A stretch of DNA of 64,000 nucleotides from Tremella fuciformis (Eukaryota; Basidiomycota; Tremellomycetes; Tremellales; Tremellaceae), in the NCBI GenBank assembly GCA_032768795.1, contig CP136493.1, positions 930,001-994,000 on the forward strand. Reading direction: 5' to 3'. The position numbers and the translations under genes were made by a program. The notes under the pieces were generated by a model, which was not told the DNA's origin, did not search any database, and saw only the letters and a list, made by a program, of their open reading frames with translations. Position 1 is the stretch's first letter; the number at the start of each line of letters is the position of its first letter. Positions 34,686 through 48,995 of this stretch are shown piece after piece.

Positions 34686-35065
34686 GGGAACCCGTGAATA
34701 CGCGTGAGTATGCCCAGTTTTGATCACGCTGAAATATACAGAGATTGTTGCCCACTGGATGTCGGACCGTCGATGGAGAGCAACCTCGGATGAATCGTCG
34801 CCGCTGCTCCAGACGAGTGTGGATATGAGCAGACCCAAGGCACCGTGAAAGCTACAGGCGGTCGAATAAATTTGCGAGGCGGAAGACCAAAAACAGGAAG
34901 TCATATGCATCTAGCGATGAGGATGCATCCCATGAGAAGCGCGCGAAAGTCATATGCACAGACGCGCAATTGGCACGTCAGCTCATATCGGCCTGAGTGC
35001 GTGCGTCTGGCGCGAGTTACGTCTTTTCTTGTGGAGAGGGGCCAGTTCACTGTGCATGGATGCTA
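34686..35065. other. Host intergenic DNA left of the gypsy element
   Basis: About 380 bases between F-box-like paralog 4 and the 5' LTR. The last five bases (TGCTA, 35061-35065) are the left copy of the target duplication. Confidence 0.6.
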
Positions 35066-35263
35066 TGTAATGGAATACGTCATCACGGACATGTCCGTAG
35101 TAGCCGACTACCCGTGAGAACTCTACATATACAGACTGAGAAGGAGAGGATACCTTCTTCGAAGAATGTATTATTCATCTGTCACCTGGTAACTCATCCT
35201 GGCATATCAGTCGACCAGCAAGGCAGTCACTCACATACCAACTCGCGTTCACCGATCCCGACA
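35066..35263 (+). repeat. 5' LTR of the gypsy element
   Basis: 198 bp, TGTAATGG...CCCGACA. Contains a TATA-like ACATATACAG (35125-35134), followed about 30 bases later by the GAAGAATG segment inferred to be the RNA 5' end. Confidence 0.95.
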
Positions 35264-35265
35264 GT

Positions 35266-35278
35266 TAATACATTCTTC
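35266..35278 (+). promoter_or_regulatory. Self-complementary primer-binding site
   Basis: TAATACATTCTTC, two bases after the 5' LTR, is the exact reverse complement of GAAGAATGTATTA inside the LTR at 35161-35173. In Tf1 and related fungal chromoviruses the first bases of the element's own RNA prime reverse transcription at such a site. No TGG-starting tRNA site is present here. Confidence 0.75.
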
Positions 35279-35299
35279 CCATACTTGTGGACGACAGGT

Positions 35300-38200
35300 A
35301 TGTCAGGAAGACCTACGAGACAGAACCCAACAGGAGGAGCGCCGGGAATCGACGCCCAGGCGACCCTACCTGCCGATAACAGCCACACAAGCCTTCAGAT
35401 ACACCCTCAACCCTCGTCACCTACTACTCGCTCGTCGCCGTTGTCCAATCTCGAGCAACCACTCGAAGAACAGCCGACGACTGGCAACAGCGACTCAAGA
35501 ACCGCTCCACTCGAGGCCCCACCGACAACGTACCCGGTGGATACAAACGGAGTACATGGTTCGCACTATCTATCAACTCGACTAGCGGAGGAAGAAATTC
35601 CCCGAGTTACCCCTTTTGTGCGGGGCAATCCCCCGCACCTTAGCCAAGGTCCCACGTATCAAGAGCTACTCGACCAACGAACTAGGATCGAGATGCAGCT
35701 CCAACAGATGGAGCAGGCACGAAGACAGCCTGTCCGAGAGCCTACACAGCCGAGGACGTCGACTACAGAACCGTACATGACAACTACGGGGCTGAATCAA
35801 CCCGTGGACATCAAAGTGGCCGCCGAGGCCGCCAAGAATATCAAGAAGCCGGATGTCTTTAGAGGCGATTTAGACCGACTGAAGCTGGATGCTTTTGTGC
35901 ACCAAGTCGAAAGATACCTGCGAATCGCAGCGCCTATCTACCCGACCGAAGAGCTCAAAGTGATCTTTGCTTCTGGCTACCTACGCGACGAGGCGGAGCA
36001 GTGGTACACTGGCCTAGTCGACAACAATCAAGAACCTACCACCCTGGTAGGGTTTATGACCGAGCTTCGACGAACCTTTGGCCGTCACCATGAGGAATTC
36101 TCGGCCTACTTCGAACTGGACCGACTCAGGCAAGGCAACATGTCGGCCTCTGAGTACGTAGTAAAGTTCCGTACTATCCTAGCACGGACCAATCAGTCAC
36201 CGGATACGCAGTGCATGGCCTTCTACAAGGGATTGCGTGAGTACCTGCAACGCGAACTCATGACGCAACGACCACGCCCTACATTCAGCGACTTCAACGA
36301 CCTAGTCGAGCGTACCCTGTCTATTGACGACGCAGACCGAGAAGTCCGTGCGTTGCACCCCAAGCACCCATTTCAGGGACCAAACCCGCCGGGCCGACAC
36401 CAAGGAAGTACCCGATTCAACACCCCTAGTCAACAAGTACGAGGGCATTTCCGCCCAAAAGCGGGATTGGACACTGCAAGTAACAGAGAGTCACCACCAC
36501 GCACGGCGAACAAGTCTACAACCCCTAAGCCTCAAAGTGGCAGGACGTTCACGCAACAGCCGAGAGGTCCTCTCTCGGAGGAAGAACGTAAGGCCCGTAT
36601 AGAGGCAGGGGCTTGCACCTATTGTGGGAAAATGGGCCACACGATCAACAACTGTTGGACTCGACCACAGAACAAGTTACCGCCACACCGGATCAACGTA
36701 GCCCAAACCGACACAACCGATCAGACCACAGAGAACCACGTAACAGGCGATTACGCAGACGTCAACAGCCAAGAAGGTTCGATGGCGACAGAGAGAGTGA
36801 ACGTCAGACTCACTCCACCAAGCGAGCCCCAGAAAAGAAACTTGAGAGACAGGTTCAACCGGGTAATGGCCAAATACAAAGGTCTACACAAGGTGATACC
36901 GGACCTAGGCTATCAAGAAATTCAAGGGTGGAACGAGAAGAATTTGACGCCTGAACAGGCGGAACGGAAGACGTATGTAGCTAAAACACAGAACGTAGTA
37001 CGCAATTACATTAGGAAGGCGACGTGCAGGGCGGATCCGTCTGCCTTGTACTTAACCAAAACGGAACCCCTCGAAGGGTCCAAAAGAACATCAAAAGAGG
37101 ACGGCGTACGCGCCAATCATGAAACGCCTACAAGGCTGTTCAACGTCCCAATTGGCCTATCACAAATCCCTGGAGAGACCGCTAGGGCCCTCCTAGATAC
37201 GGGAGCGACGTCCAACTTTGTCGACGACGAGTATGTGGCTCGACATCACCTCCCCATGACAAAACTCAAACGACCAACGCCATTGGTAATGGCGGATGGC
37301 AGGGTATCCGAGTACGGACTCTTAACCCACCGAGTACAGCTTACGGTCCTACTGGGAAGGGGGTTCGAACCTTATCACGCCGACTTCATAGTCTCCCCGA
37401 TACGCATAGCACACTTGATCTTAGGCATGCCCTTTCTGGACAAAGTGCAGCCTGTGGTAGACTGGAGCGCGAGAACTCTAGCACCACGGGACACAACAGA
37501 CAAGACGTCAGACCAGGCCACTGCGTGGCTCTACACCGCCATTACGACGGCAGAACCGCCTACTGAGACAGAGCTACCTGCCGAATATGCACACTACAAA
37601 GACGTATTCGATAAAGGACAGGCCGATAAGCTACCAGAACATCGGCAATTCGACCACGCCATCCAACTGAGCTCGGACAAGGTACCACCAGCTGGGCCTA
37701 TCTATGCACTTAGCCCACGAGAAAGGGAAGAACTAATGGCGTACCTGCGAGAAAACCTGGATAAAGGCTTCATCAGAGAGTCACGATCCCCCGCAGGAGC
37801 ACCAGTCCTATTCGTCAAAAAGAAGGACGGAAGTCTGCGGTTATGCGTCGATTACCGCAAGCTCAACGCCATGACGATCAAGAACAAATACCCTTTGCCC
37901 CTGATAGGCGACGTAATCGACCAGATACGTGGATCGACCGTGTTTACCAAGTTAGACCTATGGGGTGCATACAACCTCGTCCGCATAGCGGAGGGGGATG
38001 AGTGGAAGACAGCCTTCCGCACACCCTTCGGACAATACGAGTACCTGGTCATGCCCTTCGGGCTCTGCAATGCACCAGGCTCGTTCCAGCTATTTATCAA
38101 CCACGTCTTCCACGACCTACTCGACAAGTACGTGGCTGTATACCTCGACGATATATTGGTGTACTCCAAGGATCTGGAACACCATACCCGCCACGTACAG

Positions 38201-39076
38201 GAAGTCCTGCGACGACTACGAGAGTATAAGCTATTCGCCAAACTCTCGAAATGCCAATTCCACAGCAACGAGGTGGAGTTCCTGGGTTTCGTTCTTAACA
38301 AAAACGGCATCAAGATGGACCCAAAGAAGGTGGAGGCGGTACAGGACTGGCCCACGCCTACGAACTTGAAGGAGACACAGTCGTTTGTAGGGTTCGCCAA
38401 CTTCTACCGCAGATTCATCAGGAACTTTTCGGTAATAGCCAAATCCTTACACGACTTAACCAAGAAGGGAACGCCCTTCCAATGGGGACCCAAACAGCAG
38501 GACGCTTTCGATTCTCTCAAGCGAGCGATGACTACGGCTCCCGTACTCAGCCACTACGACCCAAATCTTCCCCTATTACTAGAAACGGACGCGTCGGACT
38601 ACGCTCTGGGTGCGATCCTGTCACACACCTACCCAGATGGTACGACCAGACCCATCGCATATGCTTCTCGGAAGATGGATCCGGCAGAACTCAACTATCC
38701 AGTTCACGACAAGGAGTTCCTAGCCATCGTGTACGCATTCAAGAGTTGGCGACATTACCTCGAAGGTACCCGAGTACGAGTGGTCGTACTATCCGATCAC
38801 AGAAGTCTAGAGTACTTCTTAACCACCAAGCAATTGACAAGGAGGCAAGCTAGATGGAGCGAGTACATGGCCGATTTCGACTTTGTCATCCAATATAGGC
38901 CAGGCAAACAAGCTACCAAGCCAGATGCCCTGTCCAGACGACCAGACTATCGACCTACGGACACCAAAGCAACCACCTTGTCACCAGAACTCAACGCGCA
39001 CAACTTCAAGGCGTTGCTTTCTTCAGCACAGTACCTGGCAACTAGGGTCGAATACAAGGACCCTCGACGGAAATAG
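35300..39076 (+). CDS. Gypsy Gag-protease-reverse transcriptase-RNase H
   Basis: 1258 residues from ATG 35300 to TAG 39074-39076. Gag occupies the first about 430 residues (PDVFRGDLDRLKLDAFVHQ, DEAEQWYTGLV) and ends in a zinc knuckle CTYCGKMGHTINNC (about residue 439). The protease active site is LLDTGATSNFVDD (about 632). Reverse transcriptase: FVKKKDGSLRLCVDYRKLN, KLDLWGAYNLVRI and the catalytic YLDDILVYS (about 947). RNase H: LLETDASDYALGAILS and ending in a typical PDALSRRPDY. No frameshift within. The stop precedes the integrase by about 310 bases, unlike elements with a single Gag-Pol. Confidence 0.95.
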   Translation: MSGRPTRQNPTGGAPGIDAQATLPADNSHTSLQIHPQPSSPTTRSSPLSNLEQPLEEQPTTGNSDSRTAPLEAPPTTYPVDTNGVHGSHYLSTRLAEEEIPRVTPFVRGNPPHLSQGPTYQELLDQRTRIEMQLQQMEQARRQPVREPTQPRTSTTEPYMTTTGLNQPVDIKVAAEAAKNIKKPDVFRGDLDRLKLDAFVHQVERYLRIAAPIYPTEELKVIFASGYLRDEAEQWYTGLVDNNQEPTTLVGFMTELRRTFGRHHEEFSAYFELDRLRQGNMSASEYVVKFRTILARTNQSPDTQCMAFYKGLREYLQRELMTQRPRPTFSDFNDLVERTLSIDDADREVRALHPKHPFQGPNPPGRHQGSTRFNTPSQQVRGHFRPKAGLDTASNRESPPRTANKSTTPKPQSGRTFTQQPRGPLSEEERKARIEAGACTYCGKMGHTINNCWTRPQNKLPPHRINVAQTDTTDQTTENHVTGDYADVNSQEGSMATERVNVRLTPPSEPQKRNLRDRFNRVMAKYKGLHKVIPDLGYQEIQGWNEKNLTPEQAERKTYVAKTQNVVRNYIRKATCRADPSALYLTKTEPLEGSKRTSKEDGVRANHETPTRLFNVPIGLSQIPGETARALLDTGATSNFVDDEYVARHHLPMTKLKRPTPLVMADGRVSEYGLLTHRVQLTVLLGRGFEPYHADFIVSPIRIAHLILGMPFLDKVQPVVDWSARTLAPRDTTDKTSDQATAWLYTAITTAEPPTETELPAEYAHYKDVFDKGQADKLPEHRQFDHAIQLSSDKVPPAGPIYALSPREREELMAYLRENLDKGFIRESRSPAGAPVLFVKKKDGSLRLCVDYRKLNAMTIKNKYPLPLIGDVIDQIRGSTVFTKLDLWGAYNLVRIAEGDEWKTAFRTPFGQYEYLVMPFGLCNAPGSFQLFINHVFHDLLDKYVAVYLDDILVYSKDLEHHTRHVQEVLRRLREYKLFAKLSKCQFHSNEVEFLGFVLNKNGIKMDPKKVEAVQDWPTPTNLKETQSFVGFANFYRRFIRNFSVIAKSLHDLTKKGTPFQWGPKQQDAFDSLKRAMTTAPVLSHYDPNLPLLLETDASDYALGAILSHTYPDGTTRPIAYASRKMDPAELNYPVHDKEFLAIVYAFKSWRHYLEGTRVRVVVLSDHRSLEYFLTTKQLTRRQARWSEYMADFDFVIQYRPGKQATKPDALSRRPDYRPTDTKATTLSPELNAHNFKALLSSAQYLATRVEYKDPRRK

Positions 39077-39114
39077 GTGGTACGCTCACATGAGCTTGAC
39101 TCATCTTCGAGTAA

Positions 39115-39177
39115 CCTCGTCGAGGCTACTCGATCCTCGACGAGGTTGTGCCTCGACGAGGTTCACCCTCGACGAGG
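39115..39177 (+). repeat. Palindromic CCTCGACGAGG repeats at 16-bp spacing
   Basis: CCTCGACGAGG occurs at 39135-39145, 39151-39161 and 39167-39177, exactly 16 bases apart, with a variant CCTCGTCGAGG at 39115-39125. Each is a perfect inverted repeat around one base. They lie just after the stop of the first pol frame. Confidence 0.9.
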
Positions 39178-39250
39178 CAGAGAAGCTGCCACCAACGATA
39201 ACTCCGCTTATAACGCCGACACCCTCGACGACCTTGTAGAATGCCGCCGC

Positions 39251-39344
39251 CTGTTGCCCTCCTCATCACTCATAGCAAGTGCTGAGCGGGCAACAGGTAA
39301 GTCCGAATGCATCACTCATAGCAAGTGCTGAGCGGGCAACAGGT
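39251..39344 (+). repeat. 35-bp direct repeat forming hairpins, with splice-like ends
   Basis: The 35-base unit CATCACTC...GCAACAGGT occurs at 39264-39298 and 39310-39344. CTGTTGCCC at 39251-39259 is complementary to GGGCAACAG in each unit, with inner pairs CTCA/TGAG and CACT/AGTG, so a stable stem-loop is expected. The first unit ends in CAG followed by GTAAGT, a canonical 5' splice site. Splicing from 39297 to 39373 (CTAAG) would fuse the linker frame to the integrase frame. Confidence 0.8.
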
Positions 39345-39387
39345 GACCGGAATCCCATTGCCTCAGAGCTAAGATTCCGTCGACCCT

Positions 39388-40875
39388 ATGGCTCAAGAAG
39401 ACTTTAAAGGCGCCATGGATGTGCACGAACAACAAAAATACGTGGCTCTTACGGAGAGCCATCCCGAAGAATACAAACACAAGGACGGCCTCTTCTACTA
39501 CCACGACCTACCTATCGTGCCCGAGAAGCAACGAACCACGGTCCTCATATGGGCTCATAACCTACCGACGGCTGGCCACCCGGGGGTGGCTAAGACCACA
39601 TCCAGGCTACTTGCAAGATTCTGGTGGCCGAGGATGCGACGAGACGTCAAAACATGGGTAAAGCATTGCGAAACGTGCCAAAAGACCAAACATACCAACC
39701 AACTACAACCAGGATTACTGCTAGACATACCCGTGGCAGAGCGACCCTGGTCAACTGTATCTACCGACTACATCACCAAATTACCGGACTCCAAGGGCTA
39801 TACCAACATCAGCGTCTGGGTAGACCAGCTAACGAAGGCGGCGATCTTTATACCTATCGACAAGCTCGACGCCCCTACCCTGGCGGAGGCGTTTCTTACG
39901 AAAGTCTACCCAAGAACGGGGTTACCAGACCGTATCATCTCGGACAGAGGAGCACAGTACGTGTCAGCTTTCTGGCGCACAGTCACCAGTAAGCTTGGCT
40001 GTGACCTCAAGTTCTCTACCGCGTACCACCCACAAACGGATGGGCAAACCGAAATAGTCAACAAGTGGCTGGGCCAGTACCTACGCGTATATGCCAACTA
40101 CGAACAGGACGACTGGTCCGTGCTGCTTCCTACAGCGGAATTCGTATACAACACCACGGTGCACGGAACCACCAGAATGACCCCCTACGATGCTTGGTAC
40201 GGCTACACCCCTAGGCAGAATATGACAGACCCATTGGGAAGTTCCTCGCACAAAAGCGAGGAGGGGGTGACATATACACGCAGGATATTTGAAAGATTCA
40301 AGTACCTTCAAGAACAGATCAAGCACGCACGGGCACAGAACAAACAGCAATACGACCGTAAACGCCGGTTACAGACATTCAAAGTGGGCGACCTAGTCTT
40401 ACTTTCTGCTCGAAACTACAAAGGAGCTAGGACATCAGCCAAGCTAGATAACCGGTGGTTAGGACCATTCAAGGTGGCAGCAAAGGTCAACGACAACGCA
40501 TACAAGCTGCACCTCCCCGAGTCCTACAGGATCCACGACGTGATCAACGTGGAATACCTGAAGCCCTTCTACGCCTCAGAGGAAACAAGTACTAGCCAGT
40601 TACAACCTACGCAGTCGCCCGTCAGCGACATAGTGTTAGATGACAACGGTTATACCTACGAGGCGATCCTTGACGAACGAATGGTCAAGGACAAACACGG
40701 GATTACCTCCAAACACTACCGTATCAAGTGGATAGGATGGCCTATCAGTGACAGTACATGGGAACCAGCGGCAGAGGTGGAAAGCGACCCTGCCTTCACC
40801 ACCATGTACGACGCCTACTCAAGCTCGGAGAGCCAGAGTAGGAGAAAGAGATTCGTACCTAACAGATACGCGTGA
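39388..40875 (+). CDS. Gypsy integrase with chromodomain
   Basis: 495 residues from ATG 39388; the frame is open back to a TAA at about 39370. The zinc-binding HHCC region spans HNLPTAGHPG to HCETCQKTK. The catalytic core shows STDYITKLP, ISDRGAQYVSAFW and YHPQTDGQTEIVN (the D, D and E positions). The C-terminal GPY/F-type part reads RWLGPFKVAAKVNDNAYKLHLP. A terminal chromodomain follows (YTYEAILDERMVK, then HYRIKWIGWPISDSTWEPAAEV), which in chromoviruses targets integration to heterochromatin. It is probably translated as part of a longer polyprotein through splicing and/or stop readthrough rather than from its own ATG; that is inference. Confidence 0.93.
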   Translation: MAQEDFKGAMDVHEQQKYVALTESHPEEYKHKDGLFYYHDLPIVPEKQRTTVLIWAHNLPTAGHPGVAKTTSRLLARFWWPRMRRDVKTWVKHCETCQKTKHTNQLQPGLLLDIPVAERPWSTVSTDYITKLPDSKGYTNISVWVDQLTKAAIFIPIDKLDAPTLAEAFLTKVYPRTGLPDRIISDRGAQYVSAFWRTVTSKLGCDLKFSTAYHPQTDGQTEIVNKWLGQYLRVYANYEQDDWSVLLPTAEFVYNTTVHGTTRMTPYDAWYGYTPRQNMTDPLGSSSHKSEEGVTYTRRIFERFKYLQEQIKHARAQNKQQYDRKRRLQTFKVGDLVLLSARNYKGARTSAKLDNRWLGPFKVAAKVNDNAYKLHLPESYRIHDVINVEYLKPFYASEETSTSQLQPTQSPVSDIVLDDNGYTYEAILDERMVKDKHGITSKHYRIKWIGWPISDSTWEPAAEVESDPAFTTMYDAYSSSESQSRRKRFVPNRYA

Positions 40876-40998
40876 GCGTGCCTGTCAATAACCTACACTC
40901 GTTGTTCCAACTACGCGACGGTCATTACATGCAAGAGAACGCATAATTATGTACAACACGCCCCGGAAGAGGAAGGAAGCGCCAACCTACAACACCTA

Positions 40999-41926
40999 CT
41001 ACGCATCGTCATCGGCCTCGGCGTCCTCCTGATCGGTCGCCTCGTCGTCGGATGGGTCCGACTCCTGTGCATAGCCGCCGCGGCCTCTATACTTGGAATA
41101 GTCAACTGGCCTTTTGGGAGACCTGTGCTCCGTCTTGACCTGGAATCCGTCAACTATCTGCCAATTAGCAACCGTAAGTGACCAAATATGCTAACGTACA
41201 AACAAGGCTCGCCCGACGTACCCCTTCCATCTCTTCTTGTCATGGGCGGTCATGCGGTCAGTAGACGACAGCTCGCTCCGTAGATCCTGCAGAGTCGAGC
41301 CCAGTTCCTGCCAGGCACTTTCGCGAACGGTGCCCCGAGGACGTTTGCCTAGGGCAAGACCGAGCTGGATGTCGCAAGAAACTCCATGCTGGGAGTGACA
41401 ACGCACGCAGCTGAGGTAAGCGTAGTTGGCAGGAACAAAACAGTACTTGCGAGGAAACTGCGCGGGACCCGCCTCCTTGGAGTACTATAGCGGCCACGAC
41501 ACAAGGCTTGCCAGCCTTTTCGCAGGCATTACACTCTGGTAATGAGCCGTGTAATCGCGGAATAGACTCACTGTCGGCGGCCCTTACGATCCTCAGCCGA
41601 CCGTCCCACGCTGCTATGAATGCCACGGCGGTGCGCATCACATGAGCTCGGTGCCGGCCAGCTTCATCAACCGACATCGCCGCTAAGGTCGAAGATAGCT
41701 GGTTGGAGAGATCCTACTAGTCAGCGAATACCACTCAGTAACTGCCACGTACCGCCGCTCGATGCTTGGCCTGAGTGAGGGTCCCGTCAAAGCCGACATG
41801 TCGCGCTCGGTACGTTCTACCGTTGCCTATGCGGTATGTAGTCGAATCGTCGTTGGCATCGACGATGGCGTACGAGGCAGGAGGGGATACAGACACGTCT
41901 GCGGCGGTGTAGATACGAGCAGGCAT
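40999..41926 (-). CDS. Antisense five-exon gene inside the gypsy element
   Basis: Exons 41926-41753, 41713-41572, 41535-41486, 41445-41200 and 41157-40999 total 771 nt, 256 residues plus stop. All four introns (39, 36, 40 and 42 nt) are GT-AG and frame-preserving; unspliced, the strand is closed by stops. The protein begins MPARIYTAADVSVSPP and has a central pair of cysteine triplets, CNACEKAGKPC and, after one more exon, CVRCHSQHGVSC (C-x2-C-x6/7-C), suggesting zinc binding. It then has a charged helical part (ESAWQELGSTLQDLRSEL) and an acidic tail. It lies between the integrase stop and the 3' LTR, transcribed against the element. I do not recognise the family; function unknown. Confidence 0.75.
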
Positions 41927-42130
41927 CGTCAACGTACTTGGCAAGTTGGGGTGTTGCTCGAGGATTCAAGAAAGAAGAGAGATGGACGAAGAACGGGCGC
42001 CCAACCTGGCTGGTTCATATATTACCGCGCCCGTCACTGCACGCCCTACTCTGCAGTTCTCATGTCGACACCCTCACGACCGTCGTCAAGGAGACGCCCG
42101 TCGCTAGGCTCGGTCGCGACGCCCGAGGAC

Positions 42131-42140
42131 AAAGGAGGAG
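42131..42140 (+). promoter_or_regulatory. Polypurine tract of the gypsy element
   Basis: AAAGGAGGAG, five bases before the 3' LTR, the expected plus-strand primer site. Confidence 0.7.
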
Positions 42141-42145
42141 GCGAC

Positions 42146-42343
42146 TGTAATGGAATACGTCATCACGGACATGTCCGTAGTAGCCGACTACCCGTGAGAA
42201 CTCTACATATACAGACTGAGAAGGAGAGGATACCTTCTTCGAAGAATGTATTATTCATCTGTCACCTGGTAACTCATCCTGGCATATCAGTCGACCAGCA
42301 AGGCAGTCACTCACATACCAACTCGCGTTCACCGATCCCGACA
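42146..42343 (+). repeat. 3' LTR of the gypsy element
   Basis: 198 bp, matching the 5' LTR throughout by eye. Followed by the right target duplication TGCTA (42344-42348). Confidence 0.95.
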
Positions 42344-42454
42344 TGCTATGCCTTTTGTAGGCTCTCTCATCCGTAGACGACTCTCAACTTTCATCTGTAG
42401 CATGTATGCATCCCCACGGAGGCCGAGATCGCTCCCTGATCACTGATTCTCGGT

Positions 42455-43632: not shown

Positions 43633-43976
43633 GATTAAAAGTCCCAAGTCTCAGCCCGAGACTACAGAGAGCATACGGGCTGTCTATCGAGCCGTCGCCG
43701 TCGCCGCAGACGCTCTAGACACCGCCACAAACCGAGCCGTCGCCGTCTACATCGCCGCGGACGCTCGAGGAAGTTCCTAGCCGTCAGAGAAGGCTAGAGG
43801 AAGAACGAGAACACCTCGTAAGCACACAGGGAGAGCGTCGGGCCTAGTAACAGGCGCTCTATCGCGAAAGTCGTCCCCTGTGAGGTATCGTTCCGCTGAC
43901 GCACACCGTGCCGTCATATCTATCAAAATCAGCACCCCCGCGTGTGCACAGACCACCTTTACCTACCTTTATCGCG

Positions 43977-46900
43977 ATGTCTGCCACCAGAGTCAACATC
44001 GACGCGATCCCAAAGCTCTCGCACGATCCCTCGTCATACGCCCCATGGCGGGCGGCCGTAGAAGTCGCCCTGCAGCTCGGAGACTGCTGGAATGCAGCCT
44101 TGGGCCTCGATCTTGAGCCAGGGCGCGTTGCAGCCACCGAGCGCCGCACTCGAGCCGGGTCTGTCATGCCGGCGGGATCCGAGGCTGGCGGGCTCAGCAG
44201 CGAGGATAAGAAAGACTGGGAGAGGTGGCAAGCCCGAGAGAGCAGGGCACAGGCGATGTTGAAGGGGACGGTTTCGGAGGCCGTTCGGCTCGACATTGAA
44301 GACCTGCTCGCTGCAGTCGACATGTGGAAGTATTGCGACAGGATGCACGAGGCCGATCTGCTTGAGAATCAGAGGATCGTGCACGCCCGCCTGTGGACGC
44401 TCGATCTTCGAGGGGACGCCTCCGCAGACGAGATGAGCGCTCATGTCGAGACGTTCTCCAAGGCGATTTCGGACGGCAAGCGCGTCGGGATCGTCCTGAG
44501 CGACACCGAGCGCGCTCAGAGGTTCCTCGCCACGATCCTTGACCCCGCCTTCAACATCGTGAGGGCTGAATTGGCCCCCATCGCCAAGGACAAGCAGTCC
44601 TGGGCCGTCGTGCTCTCGAAATACACGACCGAGATCGCGCGACGACGGGCTAGGCCGCCTCAACGGCAAGGTAATGGCGGCAAACCGCTCGCGATGGCTG
44701 TCGAGCGTCGCCCGCGCTTCGAGAGAGACAAGACCAATGACGAATGTCGACATTGCGGCAAGAAAGGTCATTGGGAGCGTGATTGCCGCAAGAAGGCTGC
44801 AGAACTGCAGCGCGGCGGCCTGCAGGGCCGTGGCGGTCGTTCTGCTCGACAGAGAGGTGGCCGCGGCGAACGCAAGGGCGTCCAAGAACGCCAGGACGTC
44901 ACCGCCGCCAATAAGAGGATCACGATCCCGCCTAAGGCCGACTCCGGACTGCTCGCTGCAGCCCTGGAAGTTGACATGGATCCATGGGCAGGTCTCACCG
45001 TTGCCGCTACCGAATGGGCCGAGCTCGACGACGATAGCGACGATCGCATCGTCTTTCCCGACCAGCTCGACGACCCGTGGTTTGAGGACGAGTCTGCAGA
45101 GGCTGGTAATGACGCTCTGTTCACCGCAGACACCCTGCAGGTCGAGTCGGAGGCCGTCGAGCCCGTCTGGGTCCTAGATAGCGGGGCCACCGATCATTTG
45201 ACCCCGCACCGGTCAATCCTAAAGCGTGTCCGCCGTCTTGACACGCCTCGAGTCTTTGGGCTAGCCAGCGACACCGGCACAATCCAGGCTATCGAGGTGG
45301 GCGAGGTAGATCTCGTTCTGTCGTCCGGGCAACGCCTCACGCTTCGAGACGTCTATCATGTCCCGACGGCTCGGGTCAGCCTCTGCTCGCTCTCGAGGCT
45401 GCTTCGGTGGGGCTGGCGGGCCGATTTGAAAGGGGACGGCGGGACGCTCGAGCGACGGCAGGAAAGGCTAGCTCTGCGAAAGAAAGGCTCGCTTTGGACC
45501 GTGCGACTTGGCAGGACGCACCCCACGATCTTGCTTGCCACCGCTGTCGACGCTAGATCACCGCTCGAGGCTGAGCATCAGCGTCTAGGTCATATAGGCG
45601 TTGAGCGGCTCAAAGAGCTGGGTAGGAAAGACCTACTTACCGAGCCCTGGCGCGCCTATAAGGACGATCCGTTCGTCACCGCTGCATGCGAGGTGTGCGC
45701 CCGCACCAAAATTACCAGGCCGCCCAAGGCGGGTGACGCTCCGCTGCTCAGAGGCGGCGGCGACGGTGTCGGCGTTGATGTTGACATTACCGGACCGTTC
45801 GAGACATCCGTTGACGGATGCGAGAACATGCTCGTAGCTATCGAGCGCTCAAGCAAGATCCTTGGCGTGGTCCCGATAGGCCGGAAGTCAGAGGCGTTTA
45901 ACGCCCTGCAGCAGTTTGTAGCCAAGATCGAGCGGCAGCTCGGAGATCGCGTCCGAGTCATTCGCAGTGACGGTGGAGGCGAGTTCGACAGCTTGGAAGC
46001 CCGCGCTTTCTATCAGTCAGCCGGTATTCAGCATTACATGACGCCTAGGTACACGCCCGAGCTCAACGGGGCGGCTGAACGAACGATACGCACCATCAAA
46101 GACATGACAGCCGCAATGCTAGCCGATAGCCGTTTGCCTCACTCCTACTGGTCGTTCGCGGCTCGATACGCAGCGGTGATCATCATGAAGCTGTCTGAGT
46201 CAGCCAGGACGGGCTTATCGGCTTGGAGCGCACTCACAGGGCGTGAGAGAGGCCTAGGTTCCATCCTACGATTCGGGCAGAGATGTCATGCGCAGATCCC
46301 GTCTCAGATCCGCCGTAAGGCGTCTTTTACGCAAGAGCGCGGCGAGGCGTGTCGGATACTCGGTCAGAGTGAGACCCAGAGCGGCTGGACCGTGCAGCTC
46401 GACGCCACGGGTGAGATTGCCCATCGAAGAGACGTCAAAGTGCTCGAGATGTCGAAGGACGATGAAGCCGATTTCGGTCACGTGACCCAAAGCGACCAAG
46501 CACAGCTCATACCTATTGGATCGATGGGAGGCAAGATCGCCAGTCATTCGGGCAGGAGTGATGATAGAGACGATCCGAAGGCATCTGAGGATCAGCAGGA
46601 CTCCGGGCAAGCCCAGAAAAATGTCGCTGGGGTGGATGCATCGGAAGAAGAGCTCACAATCAACGATCCCGCACCGGTCATTTCCAACACACCCGAGCAG
46701 CCTCGGGTCCCCCGTCCGTCCCGACTGCCAGTGGCCACCAATCGTCCCAGGATCCCTGTTGCCGACCGCTGGACCTATGTTCCCGTCTCGGCGACACCAC
46801 CGGCACCTCCTGTGGCTACCACTACCGTCGGACGGCCCGTCCGCGACAAAAGACCGCCTCCAAAATTCGGTGCGATCGCAGAACGGCTGCACAGCCCGTT

Positions 46901-48995
46901 TGCCTTTCTGTCCGCCAATGCCGCCGACGGCCCCGTAATGCCTGTGGATCCCAGGAGCCTAGCAGAGGCGATGGCGGGCGACGACAGGGAAGAGTGGATT
47001 GCCGCCATGGAAAAGGAGATCTCGAACATCGAGAGTAAGGGGACCTGGCGCGAGGTGAAGCTTCCTGCAGACCGCAAGGCTGTCGGTTCGCGATGGGTAT
47101 TCAAGGTCAAGACCGACGCGGACGGCAACGTCGTCAAACACAAGGCGCGGCTCGTCGCACAGGGCTTCTCGCAGGTGCCGGGTATCGATTTTGAAGAGAC
47201 GTTTGCGCCTGTAGGCCGCCTTGGGTCTCTGAGACTGTTGCTGGCGATCGCCGCAGCCGACCGCATGATCGTCGCGCAGGCCGATGTCGAGGGTGCCTAC
47301 TTGAACAGCCCTATTGATACCGAAGTCTACATCCGTTACCCCGACGGGATGCGGCGGAGGCAGGGCTGCGACGCTCTGCTGCTCTTGAAGAGCCTGTACG
47401 GCCTAAAGCAGTCAGCAAGGAACTGGTGGGAAGAGCTAGGACGAGTCTTACGTCGACAGGGCTTCCAGAGGACGAACGGCGACTGGGGACTGTATGTCCG
47501 ACAGTCCAAAGGGCAAGGCCAAATCGTGCTTGTTTTGGTCTATGTCGACGACATCGTGATTGCCGCATCGTCGCAGGGGGAGATAGACGCCCTGTGGACC
47601 GCTCTCAAGGCTGAGTGGACGATTACGGTCATAGGCAACGTCGGCACCGTGCTCGGGATGAAGGTATCGCAGGACAAGGCTAGGCGGACGGTCTGGCTGA
47701 GTCAGCCCGCATACGTCGACAGGGTGCTCGAGCGCTTCCCAGAGCACACGAGTAGACGCTCACGATCGACACCGCTGCCGCAGGACACCAAGATGAAGGT
47801 AGAGGACGATCTAGCCTCCCTAACGCCTTATCAAGAGCTTGTCGGGTGTCTCTTATGGCTAGCGGGCTGCACGCGTCCGGACGTCATGTTCGCGGCCTCG
47901 TACCTCTCCAGGGCACTCGCAGCACCTACCCGTCAGCATTGGGACCTCGCACAAGGCGTCCTGACCTACCTAGCCCACACACGGACTGTCGGGCTCAGGC
48001 TAGGCGGCGGGAAAGACGACGGGCTGCAGGGCTGGGTAGATTCGGACTGGGCGGGTTGCAAGGACACTCGGCGGTCAACCACAGGCTGGTTGATGGAGTT
48101 CAAGGGTTCGGCGATCACTTGGTCGTCTCGCAGGCAAACTACCGTCTCAACATCGACTGTCGAGGCCGAATACATCGCTGTCGCGGAAGCAGCCAAGGAA
48201 GCGGTTTGGCTCAGGAATCTGCTCTGTGAGCTAGGACTCGAGCAGAGATCACCAACACCGCTCTCCTGCGACAACCAGGGGTCTATCAGGCTTGCAGGAC
48301 AGCCAACCACTCACTCTCGGACCAAACATATCGACATAAAGCATCATTTGATCCGAGAACTTGTCGACGCAGGCAAGGTGAGCCCGCGATACGTCAGCTC
48401 TGCAGACCAGAAGGCGGATATCCTCACAAAGTCGCTCCCGGCGGCCGCTCACGCGCGCCATTTTGAAGCTCTGGGTCTGGGGCGTCCGCCTGCCGGCGGG
48501 GAGCGCGCTCTCGTCCACCTAGCGGCTGCATTCAGCGATCTAGAAGGCATCGGCGGTAGCGAGAAGACGTTGAATGACAAAGTCAGTCGCGCTCCGGTTC
48601 GTCTGCCACACCACGTGGTCGGGTCAAAACGCCGAAATGCCGATAGTCAGCTCGCGACTCAGCTTCATTGGCAACGCTTTACTGCATGCACACGGGGTAT
48701 CAGAGACTGTATGCATGCAGGGGGAGCCAGAGGATCCCAAAGAGGATCAGGGCTACCGGCAGACACCAAGATCATCGATTTTGGGTCGGTATTGATGGAG
48801 AACGGCCGGACGCCTTCCCATCAGCCTGAAGGAAGTGTTGGTCTGGACCGTGCGACGCTCGCGACGCGCGGTCTCGGGCCTCTATCGTCCTGGAGCGAAG
48901 ATCAGCAGGCTTGGGGATGCCCGGTAGGTCCTTGGCACAACCGCCAGACCTGTTGCGGCCACCTGCAGCCTGCAGACTTCGAGGGGGAGTGTTGA
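43977..48995 (+). CDS. Copia Gag-Pol polyprotein, intact
   Basis: 1672 residues from ATG 43977; the stop TGA (48993-48995) lies in the first six bases of the 3' LTR. Gag ends in a zinc knuckle CRHCGKKGHWERDC (about residue 260). Protease: WVLDSGATDHLTP (about 399). Integrase: LGHIGVERL, CEVCARTK, then VDVDITGPF, RSDGGGEFDSLEARAFY and YTPELNGAAERTIRTI. Reverse transcriptase in copia order after integrase: WVFKVKTDADGNV, KARLVAQGFSQ, and the catalytic YVDDIVIAA. RNase H: VDSDWAGCKDTRRST and STVEAEYIAVAEAAKEAVW. The usual end (ADILTKSLPAAAHARHF) is followed by about 170 extra residues of unknown nature reaching the LTR. Confidence 0.95.
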   Translation: MSATRVNIDAIPKLSHDPSSYAPWRAAVEVALQLGDCWNAALGLDLEPGRVAATERRTRAGSVMPAGSEAGGLSSEDKKDWERWQARESRAQAMLKGTVSEAVRLDIEDLLAAVDMWKYCDRMHEADLLENQRIVHARLWTLDLRGDASADEMSAHVETFSKAISDGKRVGIVLSDTERAQRFLATILDPAFNIVRAELAPIAKDKQSWAVVLSKYTTEIARRRARPPQRQGNGGKPLAMAVERRPRFERDKTNDECRHCGKKGHWERDCRKKAAELQRGGLQGRGGRSARQRGGRGERKGVQERQDVTAANKRITIPPKADSGLLAAALEVDMDPWAGLTVAATEWAELDDDSDDRIVFPDQLDDPWFEDESAEAGNDALFTADTLQVESEAVEPVWVLDSGATDHLTPHRSILKRVRRLDTPRVFGLASDTGTIQAIEVGEVDLVLSSGQRLTLRDVYHVPTARVSLCSLSRLLRWGWRADLKGDGGTLERRQERLALRKKGSLWTVRLGRTHPTILLATAVDARSPLEAEHQRLGHIGVERLKELGRKDLLTEPWRAYKDDPFVTAACEVCARTKITRPPKAGDAPLLRGGGDGVGVDVDITGPFETSVDGCENMLVAIERSSKILGVVPIGRKSEAFNALQQFVAKIERQLGDRVRVIRSDGGGEFDSLEARAFYQSAGIQHYMTPRYTPELNGAAERTIRTIKDMTAAMLADSRLPHSYWSFAARYAAVIIMKLSESARTGLSAWSALTGRERGLGSILRFGQRCHAQIPSQIRRKASFTQERGEACRILGQSETQSGWTVQLDATGEIAHRRDVKVLEMSKDDEADFGHVTQSDQAQLIPIGSMGGKIASHSGRSDDRDDPKASEDQQDSGQAQKNVAGVDASEEELTINDPAPVISNTPEQPRVPRPSRLPVATNRPRIPVADRWTYVPVSATPPAPPVATTTVGRPVRDKRPPPKFGAIAERLHSPFAFLSANAADGPVMPVDPRSLAEAMAGDDREEWIAAMEKEISNIESKGTWREVKLPADRKAVGSRWVFKVKTDADGNVVKHKARLVAQGFSQVPGIDFEETFAPVGRLGSLRLLLAIAAADRMIVAQADVEGAYLNSPIDTEVYIRYPDGMRRRQGCDALLLLKSLYGLKQSARNWWEELGRVLRRQGFQRTNGDWGLYVRQSKGQGQIVLVLVYVDDIVIAASSQGEIDALWTALKAEWTITVIGNVGTVLGMKVSQDKARRTVWLSQPAYVDRVLERFPEHTSRRSRSTPLPQDTKMKVEDDLASLTPYQELVGCLLWLAGCTRPDVMFAASYLSRALAAPTRQHWDLAQGVLTYLAHTRTVGLRLGGGKDDGLQGWVDSDWAGCKDTRRSTTGWLMEFKGSAITWSSRRQTTVSTSTVEAEYIAVAEAAKEAVWLRNLLCELGLEQRSPTPLSCDNQGSIRLAGQPTTHSRTKHIDIKHHLIRELVDAGKVSPRYVSSADQKADILTKSLPAAAHARHFEALGLGRPPAGGERALVHLAAAFSDLEGIGGSEKTLNDKVSRAPVRLPHHVVGSKRRNADSQLATQLHWQRFTACTRGIRDCMHAGGARGSQRGSGLPADTKIIDFGSVLMENGRTPSHQPEGSVGLDRATLATRGLGPLSSWSEDQQAWGCPVGPWHNRQTCCGHLQPADFEGEC

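Follow-up and report, generated by a model that had tools for sequence, protein, structure and literature searches.

Accessory genes that lie antisense between pol and the 3′ LTR (aORF-3R genes) are already known from LTR retrotransposons, mostly in plants and once in fungi, in the form of the brtn gene of Boty elements. The latter was reportedly described by Zhao et al. in 2011, in Boty-like Ty3 elements of Botrytis cinerea. In the accessible parts of four sources, brtn is presented as an additional antisense gene of fungal Boty-like Ty3 elements (PMC7264820, PMC8365987, PMC4227169, PMC5987419), and the plant aORF-3R genes include gene23 of Grande and those of RIRE2, Retand (ORF4) and PvRetro13 (PMC7264820, accessible part). 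Antisense genes with spliced transcripts are also found in HTLV-1, as HBZ, and in HTLV-2, -3 and -4, as APH-2, -3 and -4; their products are regulatory proteins that lower transcription from the 5′ LTR, and HBZ is nuclear (PMC10186651, accessible part). Neither "antisense" nor "additional ORF" occurs in the accessible main text of the survey "LTR Retrotransposons in Fungi" (PMC3248453).

We analysed a window of 64,000 nt from Tremella fuciformis and searched the genome from which it comes (28.14 Mb, 11 contigs). The window contains a retrotransposon with the following parts:

35066-42343, plus strand: Ty3/gypsy chromodomain element, recognised by its LTR pair, target site duplication (TSD) and gag-pol domains
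35066-35263, plus strand: 5′ LTR, 198 bp, with TG...CA ends, identical to 42146-42343; TSD TGCTA at 35061-35065
35300-39076, plus strand: gag, protease, RT and RNaseH part of the gag-pol frame (Pfam Retrotrans_gag, gag-asp_proteas, RVT_1, RT_RNaseH)
39065-39376, no strand assigned: 312-bp insert splitting pol in the window copy, missing from the 18 other copies
39382-40875, plus strand: integrase and chromodomain (Pfam Integrase_H2C2, rve, SH3_Tf2-1, Chromo)
42146-42343, plus strand: 3′ LTR, 198 bp, same sequence as the 5′ LTR; TSD TGCTA at 42344-42348

The LTR pair with its TSD, the position of RT-RNaseH before the integrase and the chromodomain at the integrase C-terminus (Pfam order, in two frames) place the element among the Ty3/gypsy chromoviruses. 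It has the LTRs, gag-pol and chromodomain integrase of the fungal chromodomain (Tcn-like) Ty3 elements, and a Gag CCHC knuckle is present below the Pfam cut-off. The element is young, with identical LTRs and TGCTA on both flanks. In the window copy, the gag-pol frame terminates within the insert beginning at 39065. The alignment gap relative to the other copies amounts to 317 window bases, about five of them target duplication, and the insert has at least 40 identical places in the genome (40 scored of 253 candidates). Since many of these are paired about 4.7 kb apart, the insert is probably a solo LTR of another, very young and abundant element. Within the insert, a stretch of 35 bp is directly repeated (39264 and 39310). 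Downstream of the Ty3 element, at a distance of about 1.5 kb, a single 1703-aa frame (43884-48995) resembles, by eye, a Ty1/copia gag-pol.

The minus strand between the pol stop and the 3′ LTR is organised as follows:

40999-41926, minus strand: antisense gene, five exons, 256 aa, read from 41926 to 40999, between the pol stop (40875) and the 3′ LTR (42146)
41927-42145, minus strand: candidate promoter upstream of the antisense gene, with a TATA box (T at 42021), near-invariant among copies
41753-41926, minus strand: exon 1, carrying the start codon (41926-41924)
41714-41752, minus strand: intron 1, 39 nt, GTACGT...TAG or CAG, dinucleotides conserved in 19/19 copies
41572-41713, minus strand: exon 2, variable sites 8 at c3 and 1 at c2
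41536-41571, minus strand: intron 2, 36 nt, GTGAGT or GTAAGT...CAG, dinucleotides conserved in 19/19 copies
41451-41535, minus strand: exon 3, first half of the six-Cys module (CNACEKAGKPC), variable sites 5/5 at c3
41411-41450, minus strand: intron 3, 40 nt, GCAAGT...CAG (GC-AG), phase 2, donor conserved in 18/19 copies
41200-41410, minus strand: exon 4, second half of the six-Cys module (CVRCHSQHGVSC)
41158-41199, minus strand: intron 4, 42 nt, GTACGT or GTACGC...CAG or TAG, dinucleotides conserved in 19/19 copies
40999-41157, minus strand: exon 5, acidic tail and stop (41001-40999), weak constraint

An antisense coding frame thus lies between pol and the 3′ LTR (40999-41926), the position that defines an aORF-3R accessory gene. 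The initial annotation of this DNA had placed here five exons in one frame of 256 residues, and its coordinates, from 41926 to 40999, were reproduced; the unspliced strand does contain stops. Its four tiny introns have the sizes given (39, 36, 40 and 42 nt); however, they are not all GT-AG, as intron 3 has a GCAAGT donor. The two Cys triplets that it listed, C-x2-C-x6-C and C-x2-C-x7-C, are present in the translation together with the acidic tail, and what it overlooked, apart from the GC-AG intron, is that the triplets form one zinc-cluster-like module and that comparable antisense frames are present at most chromodomain Ty3 loci that were examined. Its argument on introns also fits: in the genomic RNA, the template of reverse transcription, antisense introns do not act as introns, and hence they persist.

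Intron 3, which sits in the codon directly preceding Cys4, in phase 2, was modelled as GC-AG because of the GCAAGT donor, the codon pattern of exons 3 and 4 and a matching intron in another element family (family h, see below). The models tried with GT donors stayed in frame there only via weak donors (GTTTTG, GTCCCG). Three GT-AG versions were rejected: one of 31 nt, whose donor is lost in copy L011, one of 58 nt from 41468, whose donor is missing from subfamily B, and one of 36 nt from 41446, which changes the frame. Retention of intron 2 was also considered; it leaves the frame open, yet the three fixed differences in this intron match splice signals better than codons. In the 219 bp upstream of the antisense ATG, only five positions vary among 14 full-length copies, and the TATA at 42021 is invariant.

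We then asked whether such a frame could arise by chance, which the initial annotation had held to be unlikely. This holds under a strict splice model (listed donors and a branch point), in which 0 of 200 shuffles yield at least 256 aa, but not with unrestricted GT..AG introns, in which 24 of 200 do. A search for the longest frame gave 284 aa (strict) and 287 aa (permissive) on the real antisense strand, compared to 52 and 175 aa on the sense strand. As neither of the antisense frames is the 256-aa model, the open spliced frame alone is only suggestive, and it is the pattern of changes among genomic copies that is decisive. On this basis, the antisense frame is almost certainly a real, selected gene.

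The genome holds 19 full-length copies of the 928-bp region, every one within a copy of the element. Subfamily A consists of the window copy and L009-L013 and subfamily B of L015-L026, and L014 is mixed. The reading of a complete spliced gene in a young Ty3 element had been tied to conservation in other copies and to a dN/dS below 1, and both were found: under the splice model, the frame is kept in 19/19 copies with no stop or frameshift, and every splice dinucleotide is kept in 18/19, the exception being L023, which has lost the intron-3 donor. Among the 19 copies, 9/257 first, 2/257 second and 26/257 third codon positions are variable, and 16/157 intron positions, so that third positions vary as much as introns; their excess among exonic variable sites (26/37) has a p of about 5e-6. 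The third-position share is strong in exons 1-3 (18/21) and weaker in exons 4-5 (8/16). There are 27 synonymous and 10 nonsynonymous exonic changes, for an expected synonymous fraction of 0.27 (p about 7e-9, with sites treated as independent), distributed over exons 1 to 5 as 5:2, 8:1, 5:0, 5:2 and 4:5, the last ratio indicating that exon 5 is weakly constrained. Splice-signal differences between copies exchange GTGAGT with GTAAGT and CTCAT with CTTAT, which we take to be alternative consensus forms.

The dN/dS of the antisense gene is 0.055, 0.069 and 0.052 in three A-versus-B pairs, and 0.14 and 0.064 in two pairs with L014. For gag-pol, the comparison of L009 with L020 gives about 0.14 from gag to RNaseH and about 0.11 in the integrase (dS 0.039 and 0.063); over the final 294 nt of pol, two changes are synonymous and four nonsynonymous. 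The antisense gene, with its lower ratio, is therefore at least as constrained as gag-pol. Like an aORF-3R gene, it is kept in most copies (here 19/19) under a constraint like that on gag-pol (0.05-0.07 in the three pairs, compared to about 0.11-0.14). The dS between subfamilies is higher in the antisense gene (about 0.10) than in gag-pol (0.04-0.06), a gap for which recombination between the subfamilies is a possible cause, L014 being mixed.

To place the gene in a wider context, other chromodomain Ty3 loci of the same genome were read. An integrase search gave at least 86 matches (86 scored of 298 candidates), 19 of them from the window family. The 3′ flanks were read at 21 of the other 67 places (L027-L047), a non-random choice picked to spread over the list, which falls by eye into 12 groups of similar DNA; L033, taken as a group by itself, has parts in common with L032 and L028. 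A first, narrower Cys pattern found an open antisense pair in 8/21 loci and none on the sense strand. The pattern was then widened, once the translations had been read, and the wider double-Cys pattern occurs antisense in 14/21 loci, with 17 matches at most 1.8 kb from the pol stop, a few of which are probably spurious, such as those at 1122 in L032 and at 2114 in L038. It was not found on the sense strands of the 21 loci, in 56.5 kb of window background (both strands, 113 kb) or in 100 random sets. In L035, L037 and L045, the antisense module is divided by an intron, and in L046 it has an internal stop; counting such intron-split or decayed cases, an antisense six-Cys module is present in 18/21 loci and 10/12 groups, while the 3′ regions examined in L027/L028 and L033 have none. 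Three loci (L030, L031 and L038) carry two antisense six-Cys modules per 3′ region, from two genes or from one spliced two-module gene.

The antisense module is flanked on both sides by LTRs in four other groups (h, 313 bp; l, about 440 bp; j, at least 392 bp; k, at least 387 bp); for the antisense region of L029, the search found neither a second copy nor an LTR. Antisense windows of the pairs L035/L037 and L042/L046 are biased towards synonymous changes, e.g., 14 changed codons with one amino-acid change. The modules share the pattern C-x2-C-x4..15-C-x8..22-C-x2-C-x4..7-C, in which Cys4 often follows a K and Cys6 is often followed by S, T or D. In L035 and L045 (family h), a GTATGT...CTGACGTATAG intron lies in the codon directly before Cys4, in phase 2, as does window intron 3; it has two possible donors (43 or 58 nt), both giving phase 2. 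L037 keeps the acceptor and, by eye, has GTATGA at the 43-nt donor, outside the donor pattern of the script. The integrases of the window family and family h are about 37% identical. Profile comparison of the window module with the other modules is weak (probability 15-19%), and so the case for homology rests on place, strand, module and intron taken together. We consider it quite probable that the window gene is homologous to the antisense genes of the other groups. Most likely, it descends from an accessory gene common to most of the other chromodomain Ty3 groups examined and is not a recent capture.

Zn2Cys6 clusters of the Gal4 type (PF00172) have the consensus spacing C-x2-C-x6-C-x5-12-C-x2-C-x6-8-C. 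The window protein, with spacing x6/x17/x7, has the six-Cys module but a longer Cys3-Cys4 linker of 17 residues, outside this consensus, which the antisense products of L029 and L031 (L031a) and the metagenomic protein P0004 fit. The spliced window protein has no Zn_clus match in Pfam and no bZIP family in a Pfam scan with E up to 5. Because of the long linker and the lack of a Pfam match, it is not filed here as a Zn2Cys6 protein, although it may work like one. In every protein tested, PF00172 scored below the gathering cut-off, e.g., 12.9 of 21 bits for the L031 sequence.

A search with the window protein gave a single match, P0001, which is subfamily B read without splicing in a metagenome and therefore no distant homologue. 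Profile A2, built from six antisense sequences of five other loci, matched the metagenomic proteins P0002 (E 9e-25; 79% identical to the L036 frame) and P0003 (E 1.5e-8; 76% to L038), and P0004 at a non-significant E of 0.24. Searching with P0004 gave 19 proteins including itself, a family with a six-Cys module and a coiled coil. In a profile of 16 of them (A3; the short P0015, P0017 and P0018 were left out), sub-cut-off Zn_clus matches occur in 8/16 members (best E 0.0028; first member 9 of 21 bits). Compared profile to profile, the antisense sequences of the other groups and the P0004 family match with a probability of 96.8% (E 2.7e-10). The family members (P0004-P0022), short metagenomic proteins that combine a six-Cys module with a long predicted helix and stay under the Pfam cut-off, possibly derive from fungal retroelements. 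Two scans of viral contigs found no relative, and sequence searches of the PDB gave nothing significant, the best match being an unrelated helix (E 0.064), with Gal4 reaching E 1 and 2.2.

Structures were predicted for P0004 (pLDDT 83) and P0002 (pLDDT 80, the other rows of its alignment being the P0004 family), and both show two short helices followed by a long one. Their Foldseek matches in the PDB (3/3 and 7/7) are all Pho7, Leu3, Gal4 and 1cld entries, at weak E-values of 0.87-8.7; we take these to be Zn2Cys6 DNA-binding domains, 1cld being Lac9. The VIA Z of the zinc-cluster rows is 2.0-3.1. The three highest-Z VIA-align rows for P0004 (5.1-5.3) were set aside, as they match only the long helix to unrelated proteins. 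The helix layout and Foldseek matches of these predicted relatives make a Gal4-like DNA-binding domain in the antisense protein somewhat likely.

After the fold result, we looked for a palindrome in the LTRs, where a Gal4-type protein could bind:

35085-35098, no strand assigned: 14-bp palindrome ACGGACATGTCCGT (CGG-N6-CCG) in the 5′ LTR
42165-42178, no strand assigned: the same 14-bp palindrome in the 3′ LTR

This perfect palindrome has the CGG-N6-CCG spacing known from Gal4-type proteins such as Ppr1. It occurs at 37 genomic sites (reversed control, 0), of which 36 pair by position as the LTRs of 18/19 copies; the remaining copy, L022, has lost it through a one-base change in both LTRs, and the single site outside the 19 copies (C8:480738) is probably a solo LTR. 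In L010, L011, L013 and L026, the LTR palindromes lie about 12-21 kb apart, which makes it probable that nested insertions interrupt these copies; the antisense gene is intact in all four. A looser CGG-N6-CCG is also found at 41049, within exon 5. Among 5000 shuffled LTRs, 76 hold a palindrome as long and 113 hold CGG-N6-CCG. Given these counts and a search made after the fold result, the palindrome is a lead that falls short of proof. Groups h, l, j and k have differently spaced CGG/CCG pairs in their LTRs, and a palindrome search in these four gave no shared motif. We propose only tentatively that the antisense protein acts on its own LTR.

Taken together, our preferred explanation, to which we give a probability of roughly 0.6, is that an antisense accessory gene convergent with pol encodes a Gal4-like regulator of the element's own LTR. 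Antisense transcription would start between the gene and the 3′ LTR (41927-42145), and the host would splice the transcript four times, as selection on the splice sites indicates. The 256-aa product, for which codon selection argues strongly, would carry a six-Cys zinc-cluster-like module, presumably binding zinc, and an acidic tail. From the predicted fold of its relatives, it would bind DNA in the nucleus and, from the palindrome, act on the LTR, probably at CGG-N6-CCG, where it may set the expression of sense genomic RNA of its own family.

The protein could instead be real but structural or post-transcriptional, binding nucleic acids non-specifically, or binding Gag or integrase to aid assembly, nuclear import or targeting. 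RNA and protein are both conceivable ligands of a six-Cys module, the Grande antisense product is nuclear, and plant aORFs have been proposed to function in retrotransposition much as accessory proteins do in retroviruses (PMC7264820, accessible part). Nevertheless, the sole PDB matches by Foldseek of two relatives are, albeit weakly, to DNA-binding domains, and Gag already has its own sub-cut-off CCHC knuckle, and so we regard such a role as rather unlikely. It is much less probable that the antisense RNA matters and not the protein, by pairing with genomic RNA and feeding or blocking RNAi, although regulation through double-stranded RNA has been proposed for antisense transcription in plant elements (PMC7264820, accessible part). 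Selection at the level of codons, with 26/37 exonic variable sites at third positions and these as variable as introns, speaks against this as a complete explanation.

Introns and a zinc-cluster-like module give the gene a host-like look, as if a host zinc-cluster gene had recently been transduced and were carried as a passenger with no role in the element. This is scarcely credible, since in the search for a host paralogue all own-genome matches at E ≤ 0.001 come from the 19 copies of the element, with a single further match at E 0.27, and similar antisense modules occur in 10 of the 12 other Ty3 groups examined, one of them sharing an intron position. A chance frame under a permissive splicing model, with no gene at all, can practically be dismissed: the 24/200 shuffles that reach 256 aa stand against 0/200 under the strict model and the short frames of the sense strand, the recurrence in other loci is on one strand only, and the codon-position and synonymous biases refute chance unless they are an artefact of relatedness between copies.

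The self-encoded LTR regulator could extend beyond this family: most chromodomain Ty3 elements of this genome, and perhaps of fungi at large, might have an antisense gene of ancient origin, in many cases with introns, whose product is a zinc-cluster protein of the Gal4 type and binds CGG palindromes in the LTRs of the element itself. The protein would be an HBZ-like autoregulator, and such genes a possible reservoir for host zinc-cluster regulators. We put this forward as a speculation with the odds somewhat against it. Selection, introns and recurrence across element groups do suggest that an antisense gene of this kind can be old and maintained as part of its element. The fold predicted for the relatives, together with the LTR palindrome, gives an antisense accessory gene a concrete, testable function. 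Annotation pipelines may mistake such genes of transposons for zinc-cluster genes of the host, and antisense transposon genes may have given rise to some host regulators.

A spliced antisense zinc-cluster gene in a fungal retrotransposon was not found in the literature searched (by title and start of abstract, mostly outside subscription journals), nor did that literature yield an antisense gene that has several introns and a zinc-cluster-like module and recurs across the chromodomain Ty3 groups of one genome. The plant aORF-3R genes are alike in being antisense between pol and the 3′ LTR and present in most copies of a family, with an own promoter and a nuclear product in Grande; unlike the window gene, they include no multi-intron antisense gene or six-Cys module in the accessible part of the source, and their proteins have no clear relatives or known function (PMC7264820). 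Boty brtn is likewise antisense, and the gag-pol of its fungal Ty3 element includes a chromodomain (PMC4227169, accessible part). HBZ differs in belonging to the bZIP proteins, and the antisense promoters of retroviruses are situated in the 3′ LTR, whereas the window gene has a zinc-cluster-like module and a TATA upstream of it that is outside the LTR. HBZ and the APH proteins share with it an antisense gene of an LTR element with a spliced form, a likeness in the way of working and not a relationship. If our explanation is true, Ty3 elements would encode their own transcription regulator, in parallel to HBZ of HTLV-1.
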